This document shows positions 20,551 through 24,026 of a stretch of DNA of 64,000 bases, in pieces (the first letter of the stretch is position 1; every line of letters starts with the position of its first letter). The notes beneath the pieces are model-generated. The model was given only the letters and a program-made list of their open reading frames with translations, was not told where the DNA came from and ran no database searches. Source of the stretch: Haloarcula hispanica ATCC 33960 (GTDB lineage: Archaea > Halobacteriota > Halobacteria > Halobacteriales > Haloarculaceae); NCBI RefSeq assembly GCF_000223905.1, contig NC_015948.1, positions 186,001-250,000 of the forward strand, in the 5' to 3' direction. The position numbers and the translations under genes were made by a program.

Positions 20551-20560
20551 CTTTTAGCCG
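20551..20560 (+). promoter_or_regulatory. TATA box of the pheST leader transcript
   Basis: CTTTTAGCCG lies 21-30 nt upstream of the ATG at 20581. This spacing places the transcription start at or next to that ATG, so the leader-peptide ORF would be translated as a leaderless mRNA. Confidence 0.6.
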
Positions 20561-20580
20561 CTAATCACAATCGCTCAGAT

Positions 20581-20658
20581 ATGGCACCCGAATCCCACCC
20601 AGGCGTCGCTCGTCAGCCACTCGACAGTCCGGGGTTCGGCTTCTTCTTCGCTGCCTGA
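20581..20658 (+). CDS. Putative 25-residue Phe-rich leader peptide of pheST
   Basis: The ORF begins MAPESHPGVARQPL and ends GFGFFFAA followed by TGA. Four of residues 19-23 are phenylalanine, all TTC codons. It starts at the predicted transcription start, 21-30 nt after a TATA box, and ends 114 nt before pheS, which encodes the enzyme that charges tRNA-Phe. This is the arrangement of bacterial attenuator peptides (compare pheM of enteric bacteria). A stable hairpin follows the stop after 12 nt. That it is translated and regulates pheST is inference; the Phe cluster, promoter spacing and position are seen directly. Confidence 0.6.
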   Translation: MAPESHPGVARQPLDSPGFGFFFAA

Positions 20659-20670
20659 TCGTGTGTGGAC

Positions 20671-20747
20671 TCTGACGGCGTCGAGAGGCGTGGTCAGACG
20701 AAACCGCGAACAGGAAGTGAGAACCGTTAACTGAGCGACCCGCGGTT
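20671..20747 (+). promoter_or_regulatory. Candidate attenuator structures between leader peptide and pheS
   Basis: Hairpin 1: TCTGAC (20671-20676) pairs with GTCAGA (20693-20698), with an inner CGTC-GAGA-GGCG stem-loop. Hairpin 2: AACCGCG (20702-20708) can pair with CGCGGTT (20741-20747); the same right arm can instead pair with AACCG at 20722-20726, so two structures compete. There is no T-run after hairpin 1, so this is not a classical intrinsic terminator. Confidence 0.4.
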
Positions 20748-20772
20748 ATCCCCACAAGACCGAGACACCCGT

Positions 20773-22284
20773 ATGAAACGACCACAGGCACAGGTGGCCG
20801 TCCTGCAGGCCGCCGACGCACAGGAAGACAGGCGTATCGACGACGTGGCTGCGGAGGCTGACCTCAAGCCGGAAGCGGCCACCAGAGCGGCGTTCGAACT
20901 CGAAGCCGACGGACTGCTTGCCGTCTCCGAGGAGACGCTGGAACACTACGAACTCACCGAGGAAGGCGACCAGTACGTCCGCGAGAGTCTGCCCGAACAG
21001 GACCTTTACGAGGCAGCTATCGACGCCGGCGCAGCTGATGGTCCGGTCCAGATGGGACAGGTCATCGGCGCGTCTGGCCTCGAAGGCGGCGCGGTCGACA
21101 TCGCGCTCTCGAACTACGCCCGCAAGGCTTACGGTGAGATCGACAGCGGCGAAATCACGGCCAACCAAGACGCCGACCCCGGGTCCGACCCCGAGATGCT
21201 GGCACTGGAGGCCGTCGCAGACGGGCGTGTCGAGGACGCCGATGCGGACGCGCTCGAGCAGTTGGAACGGCGTGGGCTCCTCGACGTGCGTGAGGAAACC
21301 GTCCGCTCGGTCCAGCTCACCGACGACGGTGTCACCGCGCTGATGGAAGGTGTCGAAGCCGCCGAGACGGTTGACCAGCTCACCCCCGAGATGCTCACCA
21401 GCGGCGAGTGGGAGGACGTTGCCTTTACCGAGTACAACGTCGAGGCCGACGCCGAGGACGTGAGCCACGGCAAGGAGCACATCCTCCGCCAGACGGCCAA
21501 TCGCGTGAAGGACACGCTCGTCGGCATGGGCTTCTCCGAGATGGAGGGCCCCCACGCCGACGCCCAGTTCTGGATCAACGACTGCCTGTTCATGCCACAG
21601 GACCACCCGGCGCGGACCCACTGGGACCAGTTCGCCCTGGAGGAGCCAGAGGAGATCGGCCACCTCCCCCCGGACCTCGTCGAGCGGGTCCGCTCGGCCC
21701 ACAGGGACGGCGTCGGCCCCGACGGCGAGGGGTACCACTCGCCGTGGACCGAGGACATCGCCCGCGGGATGGACCTACGGGGCCACACCACCTCGCTGTC
21801 GATGCGCTATCTCTCGGGCCATCAGGTCGGCGAACTCGACCCGCCCGAACGCTACTTCAGCGTCGAGAAGGTGTACCGCAACGACACGCTCGACCCGACC
21901 CACCTGCTCGAGTTCTTCCAGATTGAAGGCTGGGTGATGGCCGAGGACCTCTCCGTGCGGGACCTGATGGGGACGTTTACGGAGTTCTACGAACAGTTCG
22001 GTATCACTGATCTGGAATTCAAGCCCCACTACAACCCCTACACGGAGCCGAGCTTCGAACTGTTCGGCACCCACCCCGAGACCGGCGAGGTCGTCGAGGT
22101 CGGCAACTCCGGTATCTTCCGCGACGAGGTGCTCACGCCGCTCGGCGTCGACTGCGACGTGATGGCGTGGGGCCTCTCGCTCGAACGACTACTCATGCTC
22201 ATGTATGGCTTCGAGGACATCCGCGACGTGCACGGGACGCTCTGTGATCTTGAACTGCTGCGGGAGACGGAGGTGATGCGCTGA
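20773..22284 (+). CDS. pheS: Phenylalanyl-tRNA synthetase alpha subunit
   Basis: 503 aa archaeal-type alpha chain. The N-terminal winged-helix region (VAVLQAADAQEDRRIDDVAAEADLKPEAATRAAFEL...) binds tRNA. The class II catalytic domain starts near 230 and contains motif 2-like segments (RTHWDQF, VYRNDTLDPTHLLEFFQIEGWVMAE) and motif 3 in GWGL-like VMAWGLSLERLLMLMYG. It aminoacylates tRNA-Phe as part of a heterotetramer with PheT, whose start overlaps the pheS stop by one base. Confidence 0.97.
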   Translation: MKRPQAQVAVLQAADAQEDRRIDDVAAEADLKPEAATRAAFELEADGLLAVSEETLEHYELTEEGDQYVRESLPEQDLYEAAIDAGAADGPVQMGQVIGASGLEGGAVDIALSNYARKAYGEIDSGEITANQDADPGSDPEMLALEAVADGRVEDADADALEQLERRGLLDVREETVRSVQLTDDGVTALMEGVEAAETVDQLTPEMLTSGEWEDVAFTEYNVEADAEDVSHGKEHILRQTANRVKDTLVGMGFSEMEGPHADAQFWINDCLFMPQDHPARTHWDQFALEEPEEIGHLPPDLVERVRSAHRDGVGPDGEGYHSPWTEDIARGMDLRGHTTSLSMRYLSGHQVGELDPPERYFSVEKVYRNDTLDPTHLLEFFQIEGWVMAEDLSVRDLMGTFTEFYEQFGITDLEFKPHYNPYTEPSFELFGTHPETGEVVEVGNSGIFRDEVLTPLGVDCDVMAWGLSLERLLMLMYGFEDIRDVHGTLCDLELLRETEVMR

Positions 22285-24026
22285 TGCCGGTCGTCGACGT
22301 CGACCCCGATGAACTACGGTATCTGACTGGGCACGACGAAAAAGACGACGACGAACTCAAGTCGGACCTGTTCAATCTCGGGCTGGAATTCGAGGGCTGG
22401 ACCGAGGACGACGAGTTCCAGCTAGAGTTCGCGCCCGACAGACTCGACCGCCTTTCCGTCGAGGGGGTCGCGCGGTCGCTGCGCTACCACTACGGCGACG
22501 ACCGCGGCGTGGAGGTCCCCAACACGAACAGCGCCGACTGGAGCATCGAGGTCGAGGACCAGCCCGACGAGCGTCCCTACGTCACCGGCGCTATCGTCCG
22601 CGGCCTGGATATGGACGAAGCGGCGCTGGAGTCGCTCATCCAACTGCAGGAGAAGCTCCACGCGACGATGGGCCGCAAGCGGGCGAAAGGCGCGATTGGG
22701 GTTCACGACCTGACGATGTTGAAAGGCGACTCGGTCACGGACGAGACTGGCAAGTCTATCACCTACACCAGCGCCGACCCGGACGAGGCGACGTTCGTCC
22801 CGCTGGACGCCGACGCGGAGATGACCCCCAGCGAGGTCATGGCGTCTCACGAAACCGGCCAGACCTACGGTGACCTCGTGGCCGACTTCGACCGCGTCCC
22901 GGCCATCTACGACGCAATCGGCCTGTTCTCGTTCCCGCCGGTCATCAACGGCCGCCGGACCGAGGTCAGCGTCGACTCCCGGGACCTGTTCATCGAGATG
23001 ACCGGGACCGACCAGTGGACCATCGACCACATGTGTAATATCGTCTGCTACGCGCTCGCCGCCCGCGGCGGCCAGGTCGAGAAGGTCGACGTGTCCTACG
23101 CTGATGACGCGCCCGGAGAGTACGCCGGCAAGACGCTGGAACGGCCGGACTTCTCCGTCCGGACGAAGACGGTCACGCACGACCGCATCGAGTCCATCCT
23201 CGGCGTCTCGCTGGATAGCCGCGAGGTCATCGACTACGCCGAGCGCGCTGGCCTCGACGCGAGCGAGACTGAATCTGACGACGGTGTGGCATACGACGTT
23301 GAGGTCCCACCGTACCGCGTCGATGTCATCCACCCGCTGGACATCATCGACGACATCGGCCGGGCGCTCGGATTCAACAGCCTCGAACCGACTTACCCCG
23401 ACGTGTCGACGGTCGGCGGTCGGCATGAACGGTCTCGGCTTGAGGACGCCGCCCGCGACGCTCTGGTCGGGCTGGGCTTCGAGGATTTGCTGAACTTCCA
23501 CATGATAAACGAGGCCGAGAACTTCGAGCGAATGGGCCTTGACCCCGACAACCCGGACGGGGATGTCGTCGGCCAGACCGACCCGGTCACCATTCAGGAG
23601 CCCTACAGCGAGGACTACACCATTCTCCGGACGTGGGCGCTCCCGTCCATCATGATGGTGCTGGAAAACAACACCCACCGGAGCTACCCGCAGGACCTCG
23701 CCGAAATCGGGCTGGCCGCCGGTCTCGACGACTCGGAGAACACCGGCGTCGCCGAACACCGCACTGTTGCCGCCGCGCTCGCGCGCACGGACGCCTCATA
23801 CGAGGACGCGAAGGCCCGCCTGCAGGCGCTCGCCGACGCCTTCGACAAGGACCTCGAAACGCCACCAACCACGCATCCGTCGTTCATCGGCGGCCGCGCC
23901 GCCGAGGTCGTCCTCGACGGTGAATCGGCCGGTGTCATCGGCGAGATTCATCCGAAAGTGCTCGTCGAGCACGACCTGGAGCTGCCGGTCGCAGCATTCG
24001 AGTTCCGGCTGGACGCGCTGGAATAG
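22284..24026 (+). CDS. pheT: Phenylalanyl-tRNA synthetase beta subunit
   Basis: 580 aa archaeal-length beta chain (bacterial ones are about 800). It contains the B1-type N-terminal domain (VVDVDPDELRYLTGHDEKDDD), the B3/4 editing-like region (DLFIEMTGTDQWTIDHMCNIVCYALAARGG), the B5 DNA-binding-fold domain (RTKTVTHDRIESILGVSLDSREVIDYAERAGL) and a degenerate class II domain ending VLVEHDLELPVAAFEFRLD. The TGATG overlap with pheS shows coupled translation. Confidence 0.97.
   Translation: MPVVDVDPDELRYLTGHDEKDDDELKSDLFNLGLEFEGWTEDDEFQLEFAPDRLDRLSVEGVARSLRYHYGDDRGVEVPNTNSADWSIEVEDQPDERPYVTGAIVRGLDMDEAALESLIQLQEKLHATMGRKRAKGAIGVHDLTMLKGDSVTDETGKSITYTSADPDEATFVPLDADAEMTPSEVMASHETGQTYGDLVADFDRVPAIYDAIGLFSFPPVINGRRTEVSVDSRDLFIEMTGTDQWTIDHMCNIVCYALAARGGQVEKVDVSYADDAPGEYAGKTLERPDFSVRTKTVTHDRIESILGVSLDSREVIDYAERAGLDASETESDDGVAYDVEVPPYRVDVIHPLDIIDDIGRALGFNSLEPTYPDVSTVGGRHERSRLEDAARDALVGLGFEDLLNFHMINEAENFERMGLDPDNPDGDVVGQTDPVTIQEPYSEDYTILRTWALPSIMMVLENNTHRSYPQDLAEIGLAAGLDDSENTGVAEHRTVAAALARTDASYEDAKARLQALADAFDKDLETPPTTHPSFIGGRAAEVVLDGESAGVIGEIHPKVLVEHDLELPVAAFEFRLDALE

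Follow-up and report, generated by a model that had tools for sequence, protein, structure and literature searches.

In Haloarcula hispanica ATCC 33960, the genes for phenylalanyl-tRNA synthetase are preceded by a short ORF that ends in a cluster of Phe codons. Does this ORF allow the cell to match synthetase expression to its supply of charged tRNA-Phe, and if so, does it work as bacterial attenuators do? We addressed both questions by comparing the regions upstream of pheS. The window is the whole 64,000-nucleotide stretch of contig NC_015948.1 that was analyzed; its features are numbered from its first letter and all lie on the forward strand.

The leader ORF and its distribution

NCBIfam equivalog matches confirmed the downstream genes named in a preliminary description of this DNA: pheS (phenylalanine--tRNA ligase alpha subunit, 20773–22284) matched NF003210 (E 4e-175) and TIGR00468, and pheT (beta subunit, 22284–24026) matched TIGR00471 (E 1e-123). 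A trpS gene, also confirmed by NCBIfam, lies upstream of pheST. The leader ORF is exactly as it had been described: 25 codons from the ATG at 20581 to the TGA at 20656–20658, encoding MAPESHPGVARQPLDSPGFGFFFAA with the ending GFGFFFAA. The putative regulatory codons, Phe-Phe-Phe (TTC TTC TTC, 20641–20649), are followed by two sense codons and the stop, and 114 nt separate the ORF from pheS.

The ORF had also been placed at the 5' end of the mRNA. A TATA-like element, CTTTTAG (20551–20557), with the BRE-like CGCACAACG before it, forms the predicted leader promoter, and its T-run starts about 30 nt upstream of the ATG. Among 111 homologous leaders, 100 have a T-run that begins 29 or 30 nt 5' of the start codon, which supports this placement well. 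Given the usual archaeal distance from TATA box to start site, translation of the leader would begin at, or a few bases from, the 5' end of the transcript.

Published data from Haloferax volcanii point the same way. Table 2 of a start-site map (Babski et al. 2016, PMC4983044) gives 16 ORFs in long 5'-UTRs. The long 5'-UTR of HVO_2948 (pheS) holds a uORF of 26 aa (pI 5.9, 2772 Da), with no extra transcription start site at pheS in the passages concerned; HVO_A0127 (tryptophan--tRNA ligase) has a uORF of 23 aa (2743 Da). By analogy with this map, in which the uORF lies inside the pheS 5'-UTR and no second start is given, a transcription start downstream of 20658 is unlikely. Three of our leaders (L383, L384, and L386), whose genus is probably Haloferax, have 26 aa, a pI of 5.94, and masses of 2792–2850 Da, near but not equal to the published mass. 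The uORFs at HVO_2948 and HVO_A0127 are very probably the same element as the leaders described here. The passages of PMC4983044 on these ORFs give size, pI, and mass; we found nothing in them about Phe codons or regulation, nor about conservation or hairpins. Searching the full text of open-licence papers for both gene names turned up nothing beyond that source.

If the ORF matters, a Phe-rich ORF should stand before pheS in related species as well. Our first sample, the regions upstream of pheS from 130 haloarchaeal genomes, contained a leader ORF of the same type at 111 of 130 loci, and the claim survived this test. The ORF was also present in 6/6 additional genomes, all of one genus, and in about 62 of 80 named loci (63 were flagged, L337 being a false match), a set that partly overlaps the other samples and is not independent of them. 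Relatives are not independent either, and leader counts are counts of sequences, not of events. Halobacterium salinarum DSM 3754 carries the leader MVPEPQIRCMRPETAPHPGFGFFFDA; other named carriers are Natrinema, Natrialba, Haladaptatus, Halorussus, Halorientalis, Halogeometricum, and Halobellus. No leader ORF was found in 20 non-haloarchaeal genomes of the same phylum. Remnants at some loci that do not have the leader (L031 and L067) suggest that it is lost now and then. The roughly 15% of loci that do without it show that it is dispensable, which counts against a sensor.

The peptides follow the consensus M-A-(S/P)-E-(P/S)-H ... R-Q-P ... G-F-G-F-F-F-A-(A/R). Their N-terminus, MAxE(P/S), is conserved and their middle poorly so, and length varies from 24 to 48 codons (mostly 24–30) with the frame intact. 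Three to five Phe codons fall among the final ten in 106/111 leaders, the last of them mostly 1–3 codons from the end.

The Phe-rich ORF is specific to pheS. We filtered upstream regions for ORFs of 12–50 codons that start with ATG, have a T-rich box at TATA distance, and include one residue at least 3 times in a stretch of 10. Of the 110 regions upstream of pheS, 92 contained a Phe-rich ORF that passed; of 146 regions upstream of trpC, hisS, trpS1, prephenate dehydratase, and trpS2, none did. The absence of a Phe-rich leader upstream of prephenate dehydratase is a point against the sensor. No leader was seen upstream of trpC or hisS, and no consistent Tyr leader upstream of tyrS. Two related genomes (L479 and L480) have a small ORF, MEWLWRVLTY(N/G)E(L/R)QPL..., before tyrS, absent from the other 27 loci checked. 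A leuS search returned a mix of synthetases, which we left out of the comparison.

Hairpins and Phe codons in the leader

Folding of the whole leader gave energies no better than those of shuffled sequence (z = -0.34), so single-sequence folding could not reveal hairpins; covariation did. We also used a swap test, in which the pairing energy of each pair of leader segments is compared with that obtained when partners are exchanged between genomes. It covered 55 segment pairs in 53 non-redundant genomes and is blind to pairings between invariant segments.

Hairpin A lies inside the ORF. Its 5' arm, CCGAATCCC (20588–20596, codons 3–6), pairs with its 3' arm, GGGGTTCGG (20631–20639), which consists of the Gly-Phe-Gly codons and adjoins the Phe cluster; the consensus pairing joins CCGAAYCCC to GGRTTCGG. 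Runs of at least 8 pairs were found in 99 of 111 leaders, versus about 30% when synonymous codons were drawn at random. Covariation among 58 distinct leaders was 0.249 versus 0.135 (sd 0.011) in shuffled alignments, a value reached by 0/500 shuffles, and the swap test gave z = -8.3. Compensatory changes were found repeatedly: GAG with CTC, changing Phe to Leu (L155); GGA with TCC, changing Phe to Ser (L066 and L102); GAC with GTC, changing Phe to Val (L106); CTC with GAC (L035 and L073); and AGC with GCG (L088). The arms reach ten pairs at L138 (CTCGAACGCG/CGCGTTCGAG). Compensation in hairpin A overrides the peptide sequence.

Codon choice separates the arms from the Phe cluster behind them. 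The first Phe codon, inside hairpin A, was TTC in 84/84 aligned leaders with Phe there, and this residue may be Leu, Ser, or Val when the opposite arm compensates. The Glu at codon 4 was GAA in 80 of 82 leaders, although the window favors GAG (68%). The three Phe codons after Gly-Phe-Gly were TTT in 19/87, 27/71, and 18/75 cases, 64/233 (27%) in total. For comparison, TTT makes up 10% of the Phe codons in acidic long ORFs of the window; in relatives, thirty stretches the size of pheS gave about 6%, a figure that takes in some wrongly oriented margins without effect on the comparison. Since TTT and TTC interchange freely, and since spaced variants (GFGFVF, GFGFEFGF, and FEPFF) retain Phe, these codons are selected for Phe as such. 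It is thus the amino acid that is conserved in the Phe cluster, and the RNA in the hairpin arms.

Hairpin B follows the stop codon. The preliminary description had noted a hairpin at 20671–20698; it is real and forms the upper part of a larger conserved hairpin (20659–20709) supported by covariation. This comprises a lower stem, an internal loop of GGA (20667–20669) and GAA (20700–20702), and a variable upper stem (20670–20699), with the consensus GGYCGGU-GGA-[variable stem]-GAA-ACCGRCC; the stop lies mostly 6–13 nt from the internal loop. In 39 aligned sequences, 79.9% of cells were paired versus 63.0% after shuffling, and covariation was 0.409 versus 0.145 (0/500 shuffles); sliding the partners destroyed the structure. 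The swap test gave z = -6.5 for the lower stem and z = -17.5 for the upper stem (53 non-redundant genomes). In the genus of the window the lower stem is short and imperfect, and H. salinarum (L299) does not have hairpin B in its usual form. All confident matches of a hairpin B model that could be placed were pheS leaders (weaker matches had E above about 0.01). If a ribosome covers about 15 nt ahead of its P site, one that terminates would probably sit on the lower stem of hairpin B, and one stalled at the Phe codons would not.

Between hairpin B and pheS lies a conserved box (20719–20734; GAGAACCGTTAACTGA here, CGGAACCGCTAACTGAC in many loci), which emerged from the comparison of pheS upstream regions. 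It is 16–17 nt long, stands about 40 nt upstream of pheS, is nearly exclusive to pheS in the scanned genomes, and persists at pheS loci that have lost the uORF. We considered it as a second promoter and disfavor this reading because the motif is pheS-specific, because the passages of PMC4983044 on H. volcanii give no second start site at pheS, and because a TATA-like sequence, identified by eye, lies upstream of the box in some leader-less genomes. Two loci (L142 and L143) have a minimal form, in which the leader ORF and hairpin A stand 35–37 nt from pheS and both hairpin B and the box are missing. That hairpin B can be missing where the ORF is present is a further point against the sensor.

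Alternative pairings and a Trp-rich counterpart

A classical attenuator needs a second, mutually exclusive fold. In the swap test, only hairpin A and the lower and upper stems of hairpin B were clearly specific among the 55 pairs, and no mutually exclusive antiterminator/terminator pairing was found, a result that leaves aside pairings between invariant segments. Pairing of the arms or loop of hairpin A with hairpin B, the spacer, or the box was tried and found no support in this test: the arms gave z between -2.5 and +1.2, and in a masked fold a few genomes favored the loop with hairpin B. The box paired convincingly with no leader segment. Signals linking the leader to the start of pheS were weak for 55 tests: arm 1 of hairpin A with the last 26 nt before pheS (segment 1 with the tail) gave z = -2.8, segment 1 with the box -2.5, and segment 2 with the box -2.1. 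These negative results argue against a classical antiterminator.

The leader sequences also have no U-run behind hairpin B. With neither an alternative pairing nor a U-run, the switch itself remains unseen, a point against the sensor. The stretch 20702–20747 had been proposed to fold in two ways; comparison lends this no support, and the stretch instead holds the conserved box. The bacterial attenuation layout suggested for the locus is thus not borne out: no antiterminator/terminator alternative was found, no terminator U-run follows hairpin B, and 20702–20747 shows no conserved two-way fold. An Rfam search of the leader returned no T-box or other described RNA family above threshold; a SNORD49-like match was rejected as sub-threshold (22.4 bits versus 37) and absent in ten relatives.

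Another synthetase gene has a leader of the same design. A Trp-rich leader ORF lies upstream of a second type of trpS, whose partial sequences best match NF008927 in NCBIfam, in 29 of 30 haloarchaeal loci (L387–L416). The main trpS, the type present in the window, had such a leader at 0/29 loci. Examples are MQSAPTRWRWRTSGADSLAFAA and MTTAPWRWWSPLSGADSPAVVVAAA, with the Trp patterns WRW, WRWW, and WQWRW; at L387 the leader lies 141–72 nt before the trpS match, and further examples are L399 and L412. A hairpin flanks the Trp codons (for example GTCCGCTCCC/GGGAGCGGAC; swap z = -5.0), and a conserved pyrimidine-rich motif (GCTCMCTCCGYTCTC) follows the leader. Alternative pairing with this motif was not significant (z = -1.0), and no U-rich tract follows the Trp codons. 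Some trpS2 leaders (L373, L374, L396–L399, and L405) have C-terminal runs such as SPAVVVAAA, which may be a second conserved peptide segment.

Phe and Trp leaders are alike in three respects: a predicted leaderless ORF, codons for the amino acid that the enzyme uses, and an internal hairpin. In both, a ribosome at the cognate codons would hold this hairpin open. The Trp leader shows that the principle is not confined to one gene.

Ribosome position as the probable sensed state

Comparison of the Phe leaders thus establishes an ORF with conserved promoter spacing, Phe codons near its end, and hairpins A and B, with no detectable alternative pairing. As cognate codons precede two synthetase genes, the sensing of charged tRNA through the position of the ribosome explains these features best. 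Judged from the sequences, regulation by ribosome position is highly likely, and we think it likely that charged tRNA-Phe is sensed by the leaderless ORF with which the pheST transcript begins. The sensing role originally proposed for the Phe codons therefore gains strong comparative support, including a matching Trp leader, and loses its bacterial layout.

Ribosome stalling, its output, and the direction in which expression would respond are inferred, as follows. When Phe-tRNA is short, a ribosome would come to a halt on the Phe codons shortly before the ORF ends, cover the 3' arm of hairpin A, and keep this hairpin open. When Phe-tRNA is plentiful, the ribosome would proceed, terminate at the edge of hairpin B, and depart, and hairpin A could then re-form. 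This state, in which a ribosome occupies the leader and hairpin A stays open, would be permissive only while Phe-tRNA is short. With hairpin A closed and hairpin B formed, the transcript would be lost, most likely by factor-dependent (FttA/aCPSF1-type) premature termination on the untranslated leader RNA. We give premature termination an even chance of being the output; the remaining probability falls to mRNA decay or translational control, with which the same data are compatible. Starvation would raise pheST expression, as biological sense and bacterial precedents suggest. FttA has been described as functionally analogous to Rho (PMC11616081).

Could the leader act on translation or stability instead? 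Stalling near the 5' end might block 5' decay or make the pheS start codon more or less accessible, as erm-type leaders do. Three features suit such a mode of action: the ORF probably begins where the mRNA begins, the Phe and Trp leaders both have a hairpin A, and the minimal form stands 35–37 nt from pheS without hairpin B or the box. However, pheS usually lies 100–300 nt away, and leader pairings with its start region are at most weak (the three z scores above, among 55 tests). We regard this explanation as possible but rather unlikely.

It is very unlikely that the conserved unit is an RNA element, its hairpins bound by a protein such as PheRS, with the ORF incidental. The arms of hairpin A and hairpin B are indeed under RNA-level selection, and the GGA/GAA internal loop resembles a candidate binding site. 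Yet the frame and the identity of Phe are retained while the third codon base varies, the frame stays intact as ORF length ranges from 24 to 48 codons, and the amino acid fits the enzyme in two independent cases, Phe and Trp. No better are the prospects of an intrinsic terminator made of hairpin A and U-rich Phe codons, the latter being kept for their U content. UUYUUYUUY does adjoin the 3' arm of hairpin A, and TTT is enriched there, but TTC TTC TTC, the commonest form, is no U-run, and variants that keep Phe interrupt the run (GFGFEFGFR, FEPFF, and GFGFRFRG). Moreover, the TTT enrichment extends to the last codon, where it lengthens no run, and nothing of the kind follows the Trp codons of the Trp leader. 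Finally, a functional microprotein acting in trans would account for the conserved N-terminus, MAxE(P/S), but pairing in hairpin A explains this conservation: changes in these codons are matched by changes in the Gly-Phe-Gly codons, so that Glu gives way to Gly or Asp, and Phe to Ser, Leu, or Val. The middle of the peptide, moreover, is poorly conserved, and we regard the microprotein as the least credible explanation.

How does ribosome-position sensing in haloarchaea compare with known systems? In the pheM-pheST attenuator of Escherichia coli, pheST follows a short leader ORF that has several Phe codons in a row, with hairpins around and after the ORF. The haloarchaeal leader shares the match between amino acid and enzyme and the arrangement of hairpins. 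It differs in that it is archaeal, its ORF is leaderless and has a BRE/TATA promoter, its Phe codons adjoin a hairpin arm and are almost the last codons of the ORF, no antiterminator pairing or terminator U-run was detected in it, and the peptide sequences are unrelated. Bacterial ribosome-mediated attenuators of the trp/his/leu type combine a 1:2 (pause) hairpin with a 2:3/3:4 switch. Hairpin A takes the place of the 1:2 hairpin and would open under a ribosome at the control codons, whereas the 2:3/3:4 switch was sought by the swap test and not found. In tnaC, mgtL, and similar Rho-dependent leaders, whether a termination factor acts on the RNA that follows depends on where the ribosome stands on the leader ORF. 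The haloarchaeal leader would share this logic, although FttA, whose role here we infer, is not homologous to Rho.

Taken together, we tentatively suggest that haloarchaea may possess a previously unrecognized class of ribosome-position sensors, found in leaderless cognate-codon ORFs before Phe and Trp synthetase genes, in which a stalled ribosome holds an internal hairpin open without an antiterminator/terminator switch and which feeds factor-dependent termination or decay. Archaea would then have their first known case of amino-acid attenuation, one with a mechanism of its own. Should the leader work as proposed, archaea would have evolved leader-peptide logic independently, in cells whose transcription machinery is eukaryote-like and whose mRNAs are leaderless. 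The leader would also offer a natural assay for FttA and for the coupling of transcription to translation in archaea, in genetically tractable species: H. salinarum has the leader, and the published table for H. volcanii (PMC4983044) contains a matching uORF.
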